NCBI GenBank assembly: GCA_902762305.1 | Contig: CACWNW010000002.1 | Coordinates: forward strand, 248,001-312,000 | Reading direction: 5' to 3' | DNA length: 64,000 nt | Source: Fibrobacter succinogenes | Lineage (GTDB): Bacteria; Fibrobacterota; Fibrobacteria; Fibrobacterales; Fibrobacteraceae | Made by a program: the position numbers and the translations under genes | Notes under the pieces: generated by a model | Database searches by the model: none | What the model was told of the DNA's origin: nothing | Seen by the model: only the letters and a program-made list of their open reading frames with translations | Shown: piece by piece, positions 17,156 through 26,896 of the stretch | Layout: each line of letters starts with the position of its first letter | Position numbering within the stretch: position 1 is the stretch's first letter

Positions 17156-20100
17156 TTACCTCTTTTCGGGGCGCTTGTAACCGAAGTTCTTCAGCAGGTC
17201 TTCCTTGACCTTGCGAGTATCGCCCTTCTTCAAAGAAGACGCGGTTTCGTTCTTCACAGGCGGAAGCGTACACTGCAGTTCCGACTTCATGTCGACTTCG
17301 GTCTTGTAGATGTAGGCACCCGTAGCCATGAGGCGGCCATTCTGCGTACGGACGTTTCCGTCCCTATCCGGCTTGAGCTCGAAGTAGAGCGTCAGGAGAC
17401 CGGCATCGTTCACGTAGTCCGGATCGTTCAGTTCCTGCGTAAAGGAATAGTAATCAACGAACTGGCCGATAGTCGTGTAGATCCAGATCTTCACGTGCAT
17501 CTCGGTGTTGTACAGATTCGCGCGGCTCAGGTCGCCATACGCCTTTCTGGCAAAGTCAGCCGTGCAGTACTTTTCCACATATTCCGCAACAGGCATCTTC
17601 TCGCTCTTGGCGGCGTTGACACCGTCCAGCATCACGAGACCTTCCTTGCTGACGAGGTCGTCGAGCGTGGCAAGGCCACCCACTTCGTTGTACGTAGGCG
17701 CCTTCGCATCGATGGCAAGCGTCGGCCCGAGGTGCCCTTCAAGGCCCTCATACGGTTCGCCGCCGTTACCTTCCTTGGTTTCAAAGTCGCCACCCACGAG
17801 GGTCTCGATTTCCTTCTTCGTCTTCGTATTGTAGATGGTCACAGCGAAGGTCTCGCCTTCTTCGGGTTCGTTCTTCGCATAGTATTCAGCCACCTTGTCC
17901 TTCGAAATTTCGGTAACCGGCTGTTCGACGGAGATTGCGACTTCCTTCGCATTCTTCATGATGACACGTACCGTATCGCTCGCAATGTTGCCCGCCCTGT
18001 CGCGGTACATGCGCACGATAATGTTTCCACCCTTCTTGAGGCTCTGCGTCACGAGCGTATCCTGGGTATCCGGGCCATTGCCGTCACCGAGGTCCACGGT
18101 CCACTTCACATCAACAAAGTTGGAGTAGATGACTTCGCCATTGCTCGGGAACAAAATCTTGACCTTGGGCGGAACCTCGTCGAGCACGACGAACACGGAC
18201 TGCTTCGCAGTATTGCCGTACTTGTCCGTGTAGATGTACGTAAGTTCGTAACCGATACTGCCGCATTCGTTTCTAACGATATTGCCCTTGGCATCCACAC
18301 CGTAAGAGATATGCATGACGTTGCCGTCCTTGTCCACAGTCTCGTAAGAAACCGTGTACACGACCTGATTTTCGCTAGACTTATCCTTCGAATCCTTTGT
18401 TTTCACGTATCCGCCAGACGTCTTGATGATAGCGCCGGTAACGGCATCGGCCTGGTAGGAGAACGTCACATCGATACCGTTTATGTTCTCGGTGTAGGAG
18501 ATGGTCATTTCCACCACGCCGTCAGCATTTTCAAGCAGTTCGCCATTCTTGTCGGTGTAGTAGGTAATCAGGATTTCCTTCCCGTTCACCTTCTCCGTGT
18601 AGCTCACGGCAATCTTATCGCCATTGATCGACGAATGCGTCACCTTCGAAGACGGCTTGTCGTTCAGGGCAATGCTGAAGTCCGCAATATCGTCAAGGGT
18701 TTTGTACGTCTTGGCTGGAATCTTCAACGTATCCAGATTGAGTTTCATCGTGAAGGTTTCCTTGGTCTTTGCGACCGGATCCTTGACAGACACGACAATC
18801 TCGTTGTTCGGGTCATTCACGTAGAACGCCGTATCGCCCTGCGCGTATTCTTCCACCACGGTAAAGATGTTCGGGTCATCCAGTTCGTCTTCCACCTTGC
18901 GGATGGTAACCACAGGAGACTTCGTATTCACGTACACAACGAGCGTGTCGACACCCGGAGTATCCATCGTCGGGTCTTCGAACTTGCGGATGATGATGTT
19001 CTCGCCTTCCTCGAGTCCGATACCGCATTCCGTAGAATCCTGCAGCACTTGCTCGGACGTGCGGTTCATAGCCACCCATTCGATGCACAGGGTCTTCTGG
19101 TTGATGTAGAGGGTATCAGGAGAATGCCACGTCGAATCAATCGTCTCGGCGATGATGATATCGACCTTGGGCTGTTCAAAGACATTCTTGACCTTGATGG
19201 TGACGGTCGCCGTGTCGCTGAACTCGCCGTCGGTGACTTCGACAATGAGCTTGTATTCCGTTCTCTTCTCGTAATCGAGAGTATCCTTCAGGATAACCTC
19301 TCCCGTCTTCGGGTCGACACGGAACACCGTGGAATCGCCGCCGATAACTTCGTACGTGATGTCACTGAACTTCGGATCCTTATCCGGGTCCCTGGCCTCG
19401 ACCGTATCGATAACAGAACCGATCGGTTCGTCTTCATCCACATAGATGGTCTGGTCGTCGATTTCCGGAGCCTCGTTCACGTCCGTAATCTTCACGATAA
19501 CCGTCTTTGTATCAGAGCCGCCCTTGGTGTCGGTCACCTTCACCGTAATCGGGAGCTGCGGGTTCTTTTCGTAATCCAGGTTCTTGCAATGGTCGACCTT
19601 CACCGTAACAACGCCGCTCTTGGAGACATCGAAGCAACCGCTCGTGTCCTTGACAAGAGTGAAGGTCAACACGGTATCGTAGAGGTCCAGATCCTTGGCT
19701 TCGAGAGTATCGATGATCGCACCCTTGTCCGCATTCTCCTTGACGCGCACGGAATCCGTAAGGAGCGTCGGGTTTTCATTTATGTCAAGGAGCGTAATGT
19801 GAATCGTATCGGTCTCGACGAGTTCCGGCATCAACGTATCCATCAGGGAAATGTAGATGACATACTCGTGCGGGTCCGTCTCGTAGTCAAACGTCTTGAG
19901 GGCAACCAGGTCACCATTCTTCAAAAGCTTGAACAAGGTATCCGCGCCATCGGCACCGCCCGTCATTTCAAACTTGTCATTTTCATAGTTCGCAGGAATG
20001 CTGATTCCCGAAATGGCAGTCGTATCGACATCGACACCATGTTCGACATGGCCGACAACGGCACCCGGCTGATTATGCTCAGCGAATTCAAACGGCCAGG

Positions 20101-23100
20101 ATTCGAAGGTCGGCGGTTCGTTCACATCAATCACTTCGATAATGCGCACGAGCGAATCCGCAAGGCCATCCGGGTCGGTAAGGACAATCGTCACCTCGTG
20201 CCTCGGGTTGATCGTCTCGTAATCGAGCTTGGAGCTGTCCAGCACGGTAATGACAAGTTTCTTCTTGCCGGTCTGCGTATCCTTCACGAAACCGACCGTG
20301 AAGAGGGAATCGACACCCGTATTCTTGTTGTCAAGCAACTTGACCTTAAGGCCGTTGATATCTCCGACATCCTGGTCGTCAACAACGTACGAAAGCACGA
20401 CAGTCGCCTGCGGCACATTTTCCTTGACACCCACGGTAAGGGTTTTCTTGCCCTGAGGGTCGACACCGCGGCTAGTCGTATCGCAGTACGCAATGCAGAG
20501 CGAATCGGTGTCGTCCTGACCGTCAGGACCTTCGTCGACGATAATTATCGGTTTTTCGTTCACGTCGGAAAGCTTGACCGTCACATCGGCTGTATCCGTG
20601 AGGCAGCCCTCGGTGAACTTGCCCGTAGAAGAGTTCTTCGTGCAGTTCTTGACTTCCACCTTGAACTTGAAGGTCGGAGTCGTCTCAAAGTCGAGCTTCG
20701 AGGGGTCAAGAACCTTCACCTTGTTCGAATCCATCCAGAACGGCATGTTCGGCGTGATGACGGAGTAATCCAGGTGGCCGAATTCAGCAACGTGTTTCGT
20801 ATCCGGGTCGGTCGCCGTAAGGGTTGCAACAAGCGTGTTCTTCGGGCTGTTTTCAGCCAACGAAACCGTCTTGTCCGAAATCGTCGGGCGTTCGTTCACG
20901 TCAATCACCTTGATGGTACGGACAAGCGTATCGGCAGCACCGAGCGCATCCTTCACGATCAGGTACACCACATACTGGGCATCAACGGTTTCGTAGTCGA
21001 GCTTGGACTTATCCTTCACAACTACGCTCATTTCCGTATTCGCGGTATTCGTCTTCACGTCGAAAAGCGTCTTCGCATTGCGGCCATTCTTATCGACAAG
21101 GTCGACCGTCAGCTGGCCAGCATCGTCCGCATCCACGTCAGAGATGGCGAAGGTGTGGATGACCGTTCCCGTAGCGGAATTTTCGGCAATCTCGAACGGG
21201 CCGTTGCACTTGGTATCGCCAGAGACGCACTTGATTTCCGGGTTCTCGTTCACATTCGAGAGCCTAACCGTCACGGCAGCGGTATCCGTAAGGCAGCCCT
21301 CGGTGAACTTGCCCGTAGAGGAGTTCTTGGTGCAGTTCCTGACTTCCACGTTGAACTTGAAAATCGGGGTCGTCTCGTAGTCGAGCATCGTGGAATCGGC
21401 AACCCTCACCTTGTTCGAATCCATCCAGAACGGCATGTTCGGCGTGATGACGGAGTATTCCAGGTGACCGAATTCAGCCACATGCTTCGTATCCGGGTCG
21501 GTCGCCGTAAGGGTTGCAACAAGCGTGTTCTTCGGGCTGTTTTCAGCCAACGAAATCGTCTTGCCCGCAATTGTCGGGCGTTCGTTCACGTCCTTCACCT
21601 TGATAGTACGGATAAGCGTATCGGCGGCACCGGCGGCATCCTTCACAATCAGGTACACCACGTATTCGGGATCCACGGCTTCGTAGTTGAGCTTGGACTT
21701 GTCCTTCACGGACACAATCATTTCCGTATTCGCAGCATTCGTCTTCACTTCGAAAAGCGTCTTCGCATCGCGACCGTTCGTATCGACGAGGTCGACAATC
21801 AGCAAGCCAGCATCGTTCGCGTCCACATCAGAAATCGCGAAGGTGTGGATGACCGTTCCCGTAGCGGAATTTTCAGCAATCTCGAACGGGCCGTTGCACT
21901 TGGTATCGCCCGTAATGCACGTGAGCTCCGGGCCCTCGTTCGTGTTGGTAATGGTAATCACGATAGTCGCAATACGCGACGAGAGGCCGCTTCCGTTCTT
22001 GTCGGTAACCTTGACCTTGATGGTATCCTTGTGGTTCGGAGTCGTTTCGTAGTCAATTACCGCATTCTGCTTCACCGTAATCTTACCGGTCGAAGCAGCA
22101 ACCGCATAACGGCTAGAAGAACCGACAAGCGTATACTTGAGCTTGCTGTAAGTCGCGTTATAGGTATCCGGGTCAGACGCGCTGACCGTACCCACAAGTT
22201 TCTCTGCAGGAGCGTTCTCGGCAATGGTAAACGCACCATCCTTAGCATCCGGAGCTTCGTTTTCGTCCGTCACGAAAATCTTCGTATCTGCAGAAACGAC
22301 GCTGTTGCCGCCATCCTTTATGGACACGGTCACGTTGTAGCTGACCGTATCGGCCTTGAACAGAGCCTCGTAGTCCAGCAAGGCGCTATCCTTTACAAGA
22401 ATATTAACATACACCGTATCGCCTTTGTATGCCGTAACAGTTGCATCGAAAAGCTGGTCGGCAGTAACGGAACCCGAAACCGGATTCTTGTCCGTTACGG
22501 TGGCGCTCAGGGTATTGCTACCATCGGCAGCATCCACGTCGACAACCTTGAATTTTGCAAAAACAGTCCCGGTCTTGGTGTTTTCAACAACATTGTAGTT
22601 GTCCTTCACGTCGACGATGATAGGCGGATCATTTTCGTCTGTAAGCTTGATTGTAACAACGGCGGTATCCTTCAGGTTCGTAAAGCCCTTGTCCGCACCG
22701 TTATCCGTCACGATGGCATAGAGCTTGTATTCCTTCTTCGTCTCGTAATCGAGCTTGGCGCCCGTCGCCACCTTGATTACGCCGTTTCCATCTATCGTAA
22801 ACAGGGTCGCCACATTCGCGTTCCCCGGCATATCGGCAAGCGTGTAAGAGAGCACTTTCCAGATATCCTCGTCCTCCGCGGTAACCTCGCCCACTTCGGT
22901 ACCCGCCGCAGAATTTTCAGCAACCGTCAAGGTCGTGTCGTAAATGACCGGCTTGTCGTTGTCGTCGAGAATCTTGAGGGTCACTGTGGACTTGACCGTA
23001 ATCTTCCCCGTACCGGAAGTCGAAGAGGCTGCATCTGTGACGTTCACCTTGATTTTCAGAAGGCTGTCCGGTGTTTCGTAGTTCAGCAGCACGCCGCTCT

Positions 23101-25225
23101 TCACGGAAATCGTGCCGCTCGTCGAATTGATGGTATACAGGGAGGATACCTTGGTATAATTCGCATCCCCGGTATCGAACGCATAGGTAAACTTGGTGTC
23201 ATCCACGTCGTTCACGGTAATCTTGCCGTTCACCGTATTGGGGGTAGACTCGCCGACAACGTTTTCCTTGACCTTGATAGTCGGGTTGTTCACCGTCGGG
23301 GCGTCGTTCACCGGATTGAGGTTAATACGGACAAGATTGCTGCTGACAGCGGGGACTCCCTTGTTGATAATCCTGAAGATGAACGAGGCGACATCCGTTC
23401 CGTACGCATTCGGGTTTCCGCGATACGTGAGCTTACCGAGGTCGGCGCTTGGAATCACGAGACCCGCAGAAATTGCATCGGCATCCACGACGTTGCCATT
23501 ATAAGTCAACGTACCGGAGACACTGCTGTTGTGCATCGGCAGCGATTCAATCTTCACTTCATATTCCGTCAAGGGCAAGCCGTTACCCGTAAAGGCAGGG
23601 AAACTGACAAAAGCATTGTCTTCATCTTCAAGACCGACAAATACGATATCCTTGCTGAGCGGAGCCTTGTCGTCGTCCTCAATTTCGATTAGGAACTCGC
23701 CTTCACGGCTCTTGTTCGGGAGCACGGCGCCCACCATGTCGAACACGCGAATCGTGAACATTTCACCCCATTCCTCGACAAGCTCATCCTTGACAGTCAC
23801 CCCAACCGGACTTGTCGGAACGAGAGAACCCTTGCGAATAGTCACCGTCTTATAATCGGTCGAATTAGCTCCGTTACAAATGGGCAAGTCCGATGTGACG
23901 ACGTCATCCAAGCTGGCAAACGCATGCAACGAGTCTGGGTCCGTATCCCTGTTGTTCGCCTGGTCGCCTGAGAAAATAAAGCAATACTTGAAAGTAACAT
24001 CAGTCGTCGGGGCTTCGTTCAAGCGAATAGTAAGCGTCTGCTTGCCGGAGAGGCCTTCGTAGAGGGTTCCCCAGGTACGCGCTTCCGGGTTGATGTCAAT
24101 CCAAGGAGGGTCAAACGGCATGTACTTGAAATCGCCCGTGATATCGGCAAAGAAACGAACATACTTGGCAACAAGCTGGCCAGCCAGCTTGAAGTGGCCG
24201 CCGACTCCTATAGTGTCCTTCGTAATCCACGTACCCTGGAAAGATGCATTCTGCCAATAATTCCAGTTAATAGGCCTATCCGTATAGAAAAGCAGGTTGC
24301 CGGAATATTCGGCATTGCTCAAATACTTAAACTCTTCGCTATGCGTCAGATCCCATTTGCCATTTTCAAATTTGGTGCCCTCTTTAACATACGCAACCTG
24401 GATTTTGAAATTGTTCACGGCATTGTTTAAATTGAACCCTTGCTTTGCAAAAATTCGGGTCAACTTGCCGTTGGGCGGCATCAACACATAAAGAGTCTTG
24501 TTCAATGTGCCACTAACTTCGAAGCGGTCATAATACTTGTCATACGTTCCATACGAATTCGTTTCGACAGAATCAGGAGGCACATGGATATATCCAGTCT
24601 CCGCAACAGTCGCTGTCATCAGGAAGTTTTCAGAAACGCTCGGCCACGAGCCCAAGTAAGGGACATCCAAATCCTCCAGCGGCGGAACATCGGACGGGCA
24701 AGAAGTGTAGCCCCCCGCTTTCTTTGTATAAATACCGTTCGTCTCATTCGTATACAGGGAGCCAATTAAATTGTTCCATTGAATAGCAAAATTATTGGTA
24801 TAATGGGCAGTAATGCTATTCTTTACACACCACACTGGCGGCAGCTTATTCCCGTCTTGCTTATCAAGCACAAGGGAATCCTCTACACGCACCGGTCCGG
24901 CAATCAGAACATCAGAACCTGTATTATTAAACACTAAGTTCTTGCCCACAAGGATCGGGCCGCCAAGAGTGTGTGCAGGGTTCTCAAATCTGAGCTTTCC
25001 CTTAGTTCCGGTATAGCCGATGGAATCTGGGATATGGACATTGTCGTAAATAGCGACAGAGTCCGTTCCCCAAATCTTGTATTTCATCAGGGAATCCCAA
25101 CGGGCCTGGTTCTCCTGAAGAGTAGCACCCGAGGAAAACTGGAATGGAGCTACGCTAGCCTTAGCGAAAGCGAACGTCGGAACAAGGCCAACGAGCAATA
25201 TTGCCAAACACTTCAAATTTTTCAT
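17156..25225 (-). CDS. Giant cadherin-repeat surface protein
   Basis: 2,689 residues. The signal peptide is MKNLKCLAILLVGLVPTFAFA. Residues 22-380 are a unique N-terminal part. Residues 385-530 resemble a Calx-beta domain ending EIEDDD. After a further beta domain come about twelve cadherin repeats of about 110 residues joined by calcium-binding linkers such as DDNDKP, DENDPP, DVNERP, DVNEPP and DINENP (residues about 650-2090). The last 600 residues hold Ig-like segments and finish with GAYIYKTEVDMKSELQC and FGYKRPEKR, a C-terminal module I recall from Fibrobacter secreted proteins. It is probably a calcium-stiffened adhesin exposed on the cell surface. GGTGGAG precedes the ATG at 25225. A 690-bp internal tandem duplication is described separately. 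It is transcribed alone. Confidence 0.85.
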   Translation of the reverse strand: MKNLKCLAILLVGLVPTFAFAKASVAPFQFSSGATLQENQARWDSLMKYKIWGTDSVAIYDNVHIPDSIGYTGTKGKLRFENPAHTLGGPILVGKNLVFNNTGSDVLIAGPVRVEDSLVLDKQDGNKLPPVWCVKNSITAHYTNNFAIQWNNLIGSLYTNETNGIYTKKAGGYTSCPSDVPPLEDLDVPYLGSWPSVSENFLMTATVAETGYIHVPPDSVETNSYGTYDKYYDRFEVSGTLNKTLYVLMPPNGKLTRIFAKQGFNLNNAVNNFKIQVAYVKEGTKFENGKWDLTHSEEFKYLSNAEYSGNLLFYTDRPINWNYWQNASFQGTWITKDTIGVGGHFKLAGQLVAKYVRFFADITGDFKYMPFDPPWIDINPEARTWGTLYEGLSGKQTLTIRLNEAPTTDVTFKYCFIFSGDQANNRDTDPDSLHAFASLDDVVTSDLPICNGANSTDYKTVTIRKGSLVPTSPVGVTVKDELVEEWGEMFTIRVFDMVGAVLPNKSREGEFLIEIEDDDKAPLSKDIVFVGLEDEDNAFVSFPAFTGNGLPLTEYEVKIESLPMHNSSVSGTLTYNGNVVDADAISAGLVIPSADLGKLTYRGNPNAYGTDVASFIFRIINKGVPAVSSNLVRINLNPVNDAPTVNNPTIKVKENVVGESTPNTVNGKITVNDVDDTKFTYAFDTGDANYTKVSSLYTINSTSGTISVKSGVLLNYETPDSLLKIKVNVTDAASSTSGTGKITVKSTVTLKILDDNDKPVIYDTTLTVAENSAAGTEVGEVTAEDEDIWKVLSYTLADMPGNANVATLFTIDGNGVIKVATGAKLDYETKKEYKLYAIVTDNGADKGFTNLKDTAVVTIKLTDENDPPIIVDVKDNYNVVENTKTGTVFAKFKVVDVDAADGSNTLSATVTDKNPVSGSVTADQLFDATVTAYKGDTVYVNILVKDSALLDYEALFKADTVSYNVTVSIKDGGNSVVSADTKIFVTDENEAPDAKDGAFTIAENAPAEKLVGTVSASDPDTYNATYSKLKYTLVGSSSRYAVAASTGKITVKQNAVIDYETTPNHKDTIKVKVTDKNGSGLSSRIATIVITITNTNEGPELTCITGDTKCNGPFEIAENSATGTVIHTFAISDVDANDAGLLIVDLVDTNGRDAKTLFEVKTNAANTEMIVSVKDKSKLNYEAVDPEYVVYLIVKDAAGAADTLIRTIKVKDVNERPTIAGKTISLAENSPKNTLVATLTATDPDTKHVAEFGHLEYSVITPNMPFWMDSNKVRVADSTMLDYETTPIFKFNVEVRNCTKNSSTGKFTEGCLTDTAAVTVRLSNVNENPEIKCVSGDTKCNGPFEIAENSATGTVIHTFAISDVDADDAGQLTVDLVDKNGRNAKTLFDVKTNTANTEMSVVVKDKSKLDYETVDAQYVVYLIVKDALGAADTLVRTIKVIDVNERPTISDKTVSLAENSPKNTLVATLTATDPDTKHVAEFGHLDYSVITPNMPFWMDSNKVKVLDPSKLDFETTPTFKFKVEVKNCTKNSSTGKFTEGCLTDTADVTVKLSDVNEKPIIIVDEGPDGQDDTDSLCIAYCDTTSRGVDPQGKKTLTVGVKENVPQATVVLSYVVDDQDVGDINGLKVKLLDNKNTGVDSLFTVGFVKDTQTGKKKLVITVLDSSKLDYETINPRHEVTIVLTDPDGLADSLVRIIEVIDVNEPPTFESWPFEFAEHNQPGAVVGHVEHGVDVDTTAISGISIPANYENDKFEMTGGADGADTLFKLLKNGDLVALKTFDYETDPHEYVIYISLMDTLMPELVETDTIHITLLDINENPTLLTDSVRVKENADKGAIIDTLEAKDLDLYDTVLTFTLVKDTSGCFDVSKSGVVTVKVDHCKNLDYEKNPQLPITVKVTDTKGGSDTKTVIVKITDVNEAPEIDDQTIYVDEDEPIGSVIDTVEARDPDKDPKFSDITYEVIGGDSTVFRVDPKTGEVILKDTLDYEKRTEYKLIVEVTDGEFSDTATVTIKVKNVFEQPKVDIIIAETIDSTWHSPDTLYINQKTLCIEWVAMNRTSEQVLQDSTECGIGLEEGENIIIRKFEDPTMDTPGVDTLVVYVNTKSPVVTIRKVEDELDDPNIFTVVEEYAQGDTAFYVNDPNNEIVVSVKDPVAKTKETFTMKLNLDTLKIPAKTYKTLDDIADFSIALNDKPSSKVTHSSINGDKIAVSYTEKVNGKEILITYYTDKNGELLENADGVVEMTISYTENINGIDVTFSYQADAVTGAIIKTSGGYVKTKDSKDKSSENQVVYTVSYETVDKDGNVMHISYGVDAKGNIVRNECGSIGYELTYIYTDKYGNTAKQSVFVVLDEVPPKVKILFPSNGEVIYSNFVDVKWTVDLGDGNGPDTQDTLVTQSLKKGGNIIVRMYRDRAGNIASDTVRVIMKNAKEVAISVEQPVTEISKDKVAEYYAKNEPEEGETFAVTIYNTKTKKEIETLVGGDFETKEGNGGEPYEGLEGHLGPTLAIDAKAPTYNEVGGLATLDDLVSKEGLVMLDGVNAAKSEKMPVAEYVEKYCTADFARKAYGDLSRANLYNTEMHVKIWIYTTIGQFVDYYSFTQELNDPDYVNDAGLLTLYFELKPDRDGNVRTQNGRLMATGAYIYKTEVDMKSELQCTLPPVKNETASSLKKGDTRKVKEDLLKNFGYKRPEKR
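20560..21930 (-). repeat. 690-bp tandem duplication inside the adhesin gene
   Basis: Two neighbouring blocks of two cadherin repeats each (230 residues) are nearly identical. Matching words are exactly 690 bases apart, for example AGGTGTGGATGACCGTTCCC at 21151 and 21841, and GGGTTGCAAC at 20821 and 21511. Both blocks share the peptides CNGPFEIAENSATGTVIHTF and AENSPKNTLVATLTATDPDT. Confidence 0.9.
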
Positions 25226-25364
25226 TTTCTCCACCACACGGAAAAATGGTTGACTCCAACCCATTTCACACCGACCCCAAAAATACTAAAAAATTATTAC
25301 ATTCCAAGGTTGTTTTCGAAGAAGCGGGGCAAAATTTCCCAATTCTTCGAATTCTACCTTTTAG

Positions 25365-26401: not shown

Positions 26402-26416
26402 TTTCGCTTCGCAATT

Positions 26417-26545
26417 CGGGGATGCCGCGCGGGGATGCCGCGAGCCGCGGGTTGTAAATGCGAACCGCAATTTCGGGGAAATTCGGGCCGCGGGGTATAG
26501 AATGCGGGCCGCGGGCTGTAAATCTGGGTCGCGGGGACCGAGTTC
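26417..26545. repeat. GC-rich degenerate direct repeats
   Basis: CGGGGATGCCGCG is repeated head to tail (26417-26442). It is followed by units of about 21 bp starting GCCGCGGG at 26444, 26487 and 26508 and GTCGCGGG at 26528, with a weak unit between the first two. Repeats 2-4 share a following TGTAAAT/TATAGAAT stretch. No coding potential is evident. Confidence 0.65.
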
Positions 26546-26585
26546 AGGCCGATTTTACGCAATTCGCGGGGGATTTTCGCGATTT

Positions 26586-26816
26586 TGGCTGACTAAAGCG
26601 CCATTTTCGGGGATTTAGTCCGCCAAAAATTAGTTTGTTCGCAAGCACATTTGTTTTTTCGGCAGACCAAAATGCGGTTTTTCGCAATTTAGTCAGCCAG
26701 AACCGACACCGGCCACCCCCAAAAAACGCCAACAAGCCCGACAACAGCCCCAAAATTCGTTACTTTGTTCAAAAAGTGGCTGACTAAAATCAGTTTTTTC
26801 GCGAATTGGTCAGCCA
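26586..26816. repeat. Three 40-nt hairpins with identical geometry
   Basis: Copies lie at 26586-26625, 26660-26699 and 26777-26816. Each has a 12-nt left arm related to TGGCTGACTAAA, a 16-nt loop and a 12-nt right arm related to TTTAGTCAGCCA. All three loops contain TTTTCG. The set occupies the gap between two convergent genes. The remainder of the gap (26817-26896) shows nothing recognisable. Confidence 0.85.
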
Positions 26817-26896
26817 AAATCGCAATTTCGACATGCAAAATGCCCGCAGGCAGAAGTCAAAACGCCAACAGGCCCGCGACACGCCCCATGTTGCTA

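Follow-up and report, generated by a model that had tools for sequence, protein, structure and literature searches.

Operators of the AraC and LacI type consist of helically phased dimer sites with DNA looping near the regulator's own gene, and the res site of the serine resolvases has a direction and contains three dimer sites that are phased. Co-evolution of REP palindromes with TnpA-REP has been described (PMC8266576), and among the EDxHD homing endonucleases I-Bth0305I works as a dimer whose target spans nearly 60 bp (reviewed in PMC3943268). The arrays reported here resemble the REP/BIME elements and their RAYT (TnpA-REP): they consist of palindromes that are specific to a species, are scattered over intergenic DNA, often where two genes converge, and co-evolve with a putative cognate protein. 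We found no description of such arrays or of such a system in the open-access literature.

The window is the whole stretch of 64,000 nucleotides analysed here, taken from Fibrobacter succinogenes (GCA_902762305.1, contig CACWNW010000002.1, positions 248,001 to 312,000). An earlier note on this DNA had described three 40-nt hairpins between two convergent genes. All three palindromes were found again at the same positions, each with a 12-16-12 layout; their start-to-start distances, re-measured, were 74 and 117 bp as claimed, and the neighbours, a His_Phos gene (+) and a DUF5683 gene (-), are indeed convergent. What the note had overlooked is a TTAsTTTGT motif, fixed at +5/+6 of site A and at -17 of site C. 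The features of the locus are as follows.

26402..26896, no strand: entire intergenic insert of about 495 bp between the convergent neighbours
26586..26625, + strand: site A, TGGCTGACTAAA-N16-TTTAGTCCGCCA, 40 bp
26630..26644, + strand: motif 1, TTAGTTTGTTCGCAA, at +5 from site A; found at +5/+6 in 20/21 arrays
26660..26699, + strand: site B, CGGCAGACCAAA-N16-TTTAGTCAGCCA, 40 bp; A to B 74 bp, or 7 turns
26760..26776, + strand: motif 2, TTACTTTGTTCAAAAAG, abutting site C; offset -17 in 21/21 arrays
26777..26816, + strand: site C, TGGCTGACTAAA-N16-ATTGGTCAGCCA, 40 bp; B to C 117 bp, or 11 turns

The left flank of the insert is G/T-rich and the right flank C/A-rich, matching the other arrays. The gap between the same two genes measures 2-120 bp in nearly all congeners examined, against about 500 bp in the window, and one congener carries an unrelated 509-bp insert there. 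Because the gap is short or empty of an array in nearly all congeners examined, the window array is an addition in the source lineage. Adjoining the locus, at 17156-25264 (-), is a gene for a predicted surface protein of 2702 aa with many repeated cadherin-like segments, as judged by eye.

The source genome (G000) is a draft of 3.6 Mb in 57 contigs, in which genes were called by codon scoring. The genome-wide search that the earlier note had proposed was run with TGGCTGACTAAA-N16-TTTAGTCAGCCA; allowing at most 3 mismatches, it found 47 matches per strand, and the reversed control pattern gave none in the same genome at the same limit. A looser scan around the matches recovered 59 sites at 21 loci, in clusters of 2-3. 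Nearly all of these loci have three sites, each exactly 40 bp long (12-bp arms, 16-bp centre); the middle site of L021 has a 17-bp centre and was not counted by the scan. The pattern is thus not unique to one place, as the note had allowed it might be, and its geometry is kept in the genus and beyond. The arrays have a polarity: site A is followed by the motif at +5/+6, then comes site B, then the motif again, at -17 from site C, and finally site C itself. Eleven of the loci lie between convergent, 8 between tandem and 2 between divergent gene pairs, so that convergent placement (11/21, with locus orientations reassigned by hand) compares with 12% of similar-sized gaps (p ~1e-5). In 8/17 arrays the right arm of site B has AA where TT is expected, and site B may therefore be functionally distinct. 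Between the near-duplicate arrays L021 and L022, by alaS, there is an island whose ORFs are lipoprotein-like and atypical in codon usage (C8:65980-72030; L021 3605-6301, L022 170-2947).

We considered TTAsTTTGT as a promoter and rejected it, since it is not enriched upstream of genes; the genus motif enriched there is CTATATTTG-like. The -7 element of the genus promoter is apparently of this CTATATTTG-like, TAnnTTTG type in the upstream regions of the window and of L101-L120. The search for sigma-70 promoters found none, and the one terminator-like match was within chance.

From one site to the next the distance is a whole number of helical turns, between 7 and 16. The start-to-start spacings in G000 were 74/75, 85, 96, 106, 115-117, 126/127, 137 and 168/169 bp, together with one of 109 bp, and a period scan of them (n=39, including two assumed for L021) gave a best period of 10.59 bp at zero phase with a mean cosine of 0.898. 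In other species the best period was 10.55 bp with a mean cosine of 0.940 (n=70), counts that are not fully independent because some loci are orthologous between species; the G000 spacings by themselves suffice to establish the phasing. None of the 2000 jittered control sets matched either observed score, and gene-adjacent arrays in several phyla showed a spacing period of 10.57-10.58 bp. The spacings in the window are not arbitrary, being quantised to whole helical turns. T and A tracts in the array flanks also recur, every 10.25-10.5 bp, and the power of this periodicity is about 2x (left) and 1.5x (right) that of ordinary intergenic DNA. The arrays are like res sites in being directional, with three phased putative dimer sites, but differ from them in that the three sites are of equal length, the spacing varies by whole turns and no resolvase is adjacent.

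The earlier note left the choice between protein-binding sites, a structured RNA and REP-like elements, and suggested a covariance test of the arms. Over the 59 sites, 590 Watson-Crick pairs were observed, compared to 600.1 +/- 5.7 under independence; pairing is no better than when the arms are re-matched at random, and the changes in the second copy, which had been taken as partly compensated, are no compensation, as the two arms vary independently. Positions 2, 4, 6, 8 and 10 of the arm are invariant, and at positions 1, 5 and 9 each side varies on its own. Because there is no covariation between the left arm and the right, the arms are DNA half-sites and not RNA hairpins, and such independent variation is the behaviour of protein half-sites. 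Three conserved hairpins within a transcript could be imagined from 12-bp arms that are able to pair and from palindromes that sit in intergenic DNA. However, besides the lack of covariation, the Rfam search of the array gave no match, the spacing follows the helical repeat, which is a property of DNA, and TTAsTTTGT differs from the genus promoter motif. A structured RNA is thus contradicted and in our view extremely improbable. A cluster of protein-binding sites is strongly supported by the phasing, by the independent half-sites and by a candidate cognate protein family.

The REP-like reading holds only loosely, in so far as dispersed palindromes go with a cognate gene, and does not hold in other respects. 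The putative cognate is PD-(D/E)XK-like, whereas RAYT is an HUH transposase. The sites here would be pairs of duplex half-sites flanking a 16-bp centre that is free; 2-8 such sites make up a phased array, and their arms are not maintained as pairs. No GTAG/CGTC-type tag was seen in the flanks of the 21 arrays, which have A/T tracts and TTAsTTTGT instead.

In G029 and in G000, arrays flank a gene for a protein of about 290-350 aa that had no match above the curated cut-off in Pfam or NCBIfam. The putative cognate gene of the window dialect lies at G000:C20, ~18180-19240, on the minus strand, with an array of this dialect directly adjacent. Homologues are multi-copy in 8/9 array-bearing genomes tested (G029 has one copy) and were absent from 3 tested genomes that showed neither searched arm pattern. 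Most gene copies examined have adjacent phased palindromes, and paralogs differ in dialect, by which we mean the arm type. A 1.7-kb repeat in G029 was considered as a transposon and proved to be a tandem array duplication around the nuclease gene. In public genomes, at least 579 loci encode relatives, in Fibrobacter, Treponema, Lachnospiraceae, Butyrivibrio and Clostridiaceae. Upstream arrays, with a separate dialect for each, were seen at family members from Fibrobacter, Treponema, Lachnospiraceae and Clostridiaceae. Three or more phased sites were found upstream in 41/71 gene loci, compared to 7/71 in the downstream control; the other 30/71 gave fewer than 3 upstream sites with the detector used. 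Outside the genus, the site centres of gene-adjacent arrays vary by about 1 base. Treponema locus L317 has eight TTACGGACGAAA sites at a spacing of exactly 95 bp, and Clostridiaceae locus L260 has seven at 74/75 bp. Integral-turn spacing between putative dimer sites near the own gene is shared with AraC and LacI operators; the differences are the nuclease fold, the 40-bp sites, up to 8 of them per array, and the tens of orphan arrays off promoters.

The AlphaFold model of the protein (pLDDT 92.8) has two long helices with a connecting beta-hairpin, followed by a C-terminal nuclease-like domain. Foldseek gave no significant match to the model (best E 0.13). The VIA-align neighbours of the nuclease domain, at moderate Z, were I-Bth0305I (3r3p, 8.2), TnsA (1f1z, 7.8) and Vsr (1cw0, 6.5), and also Bax1. 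The C-terminal ~115 residues match PDC-S68, a PADLOC candidate for phage defence, in 16/16 members (E down to 7e-30); the PDC-S68 models are of about 1200 aa, however, and the match is limited to model positions ~1100-1220, that is, to the nuclease domain only. Three putative cognate proteins of widely dispersed dialects (L323, L324 and L331) have in common a low-complexity insertion inside this domain.

Among the 80 congeneric genomes searched, no other has the arms of the window. An exact search with these arms suggested that the arrays were a curiosity of one species, a view that we rejected, as relatives carry the same geometry with other arms. Orthologous gaps hold same-geometry arrays with TTACGGACTAAA arms in G029 and GCAGACC-type arms in G033, and further arm types among congeners include TGATGGACCAAA, CAAAGGACTAAA and TGGCGGTGAAAT. 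The GGACYAAA form is confined to this genus among the 167 genomes of the phylum searched. The window arm pattern had no match in public contigs and viral contigs, a search that is uninformative because the arms are species-specific. At L024 the spacer can be aligned across G000, G029 and G033, and the arms differ by species; since the spacer still aligns, the arms have been rewritten in place. In G029 and G091 many site centres consist of a G-tract, against an A/T-tract in other species, and the centre thus shifts with dialect too. G000 itself has four dialects: TGGCTGACTAAA (C20), GGGCGTATAAAT (C8), TGGGTACCAAAA and a TGGGGAT-type (C13). The second of these has dispersed arrays of its own, with 18 sites in G000:

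G000:C1:305795, C4:87760, C4:126192, C5:123890, C8:62484, C16:73754 and C34:14451: dispersed GGGCGTATAAAT arrays; putative cognate paralog at C8:97245

Sixteen sites of a GGTGAAA dialect were seen in G033, in which no cognate gene was detected, and these arrays seem to outlive their gene or to be separated from it.

The more alike two proteins are, the more alike their arms tend to be (Mantel r=0.364, 0/5000 permutations), which alone does not prove recognition because gene and array descend together. More can be learned from natural chimeras. The proteins of L225 and L226 are 87% identical in the C-terminal and 33% in the N-terminal part, those of L245 and L246 97% and 36%, and in both pairs the arms differ. 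In the chimera clade, arm similarity correlates with the N-terminal beta-hairpin region at r=0.83, compared to r=0.09 for the C-terminal part. These sequence comparisons show that the dialect follows the N-terminal beta-hairpin domain without tracking the nuclease domain. They also bear on the idea that the reader of the arrays is a different DNA-binding protein of the host, with the PD-(D/E)XK gene as only one of the targets that it regulates. The co-conserved TTAsTTTGT hints at a second factor, and the G033 dialect that is retained with no gene detected would fit such a factor. However, paralogs in one genome each have a different dialect, and in the chimeras the dialect goes with the N-terminal domain of that same protein. 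A single host factor is therefore insufficient, and we regard this idea as improbable.

A further explanation is selfish or homing-like: an active endonuclease for which the palindromes are signals to cleave or copy, with orphan arrays as non-autonomous copies or remnants that break repair has spread over the chromosome. The nuclease-domain fold resembles that of I-Bth0305I (Z 8.2, rmsd 2.8 over 90 residues) and, like the match to Vsr, this structural match is weak. R174, K176, E178, D217, E232 and H233 are invariant in 51/51 members; as candidates for the E, D, H, D active-site residues of EDxHD, counted within the family, E178, D217 and H233 are invariant and D238 is present in 43/51. The empty orthologous gaps at the window locus, the near-duplicate L021/L022 and a truncated gene remnant beside one array (G060:C39) could all be left by such spreading. 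On the other hand, the family has a different N-terminal reading domain and is multi-copy and chromosomal, and its gene lies next to palindromic arrays that are intact and does not interrupt the target. About 60 intact sites would leave the chromosome open to cleavage, the spacers of most arrays are unrelated, and L024 was vertically inherited while its arms were rewritten. The plasmid, phage and viral contig collections held no full-length relatives, one partial match (71% covered) in a short phage record aside. We consider this explanation possible but unlikely.

We lean toward the view that the array in the window is an orphan, bound by a sequence-specific PD-(D/E)XK-like protein as dimers on phased sites; arrays of this kind would act as an operator at the protein's own gene and in anchoring or insulation at the orphans. 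Each 40-bp palindrome would take one dimer, with the outer arms read by the N-terminal coiled-coil/beta-hairpin domains and the nuclease-fold domains positioned above the 16-bp centre. With whole-turn spacing all dimers would be on the same side of the helix, making cooperative binding possible, and the aligned dimers may wrap or loop several hundred bp, including the phased A-tracts. The gene-adjacent array would then work as an operator for autoregulation, through which a nuclease that might do damage is most likely repressed, and the orphan arrays, often between convergent genes, may be chromosomal anchoring or insulating sites that carry the wrapped complex. Some observations count against this explanation. 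The arrays of one dialect in G033 are without a detected cognate gene; TTAsTTTGT has no role in the model and was not seen in Treponema arrays; and an upstream operator leaves G006 and G060 unexplained, because there the adjacent array lies downstream of the gene.

Taken more widely, it is likely that this is an undescribed bipartite system in at least three phyla of gut and rumen bacteria. In it, diversifying PD-(D/E)XK-like proteins would be bound to phased arrays of 40-bp palindromes at their own gene and at dozens of orphan sites (the latter part shown in Fibrobacter only). Each protein would have a dialect private to it, determined by an N-terminal beta-hairpin module that can be exchanged, with several orthogonal dialects in one genome. 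Natural arrays that obey the DNA helical repeat so strictly, at many loci and with changing sequence, are rare. A fixed geometry with freely changing arms offers a ready-made code of protein-DNA recognition, with tens of natural pairs of protein and dialect, natural domain swaps included. It also raises the questions of why a nuclease-like protein should mark its own chromosome at dozens of intergenic places and how the entire set of sites switches dialect together.
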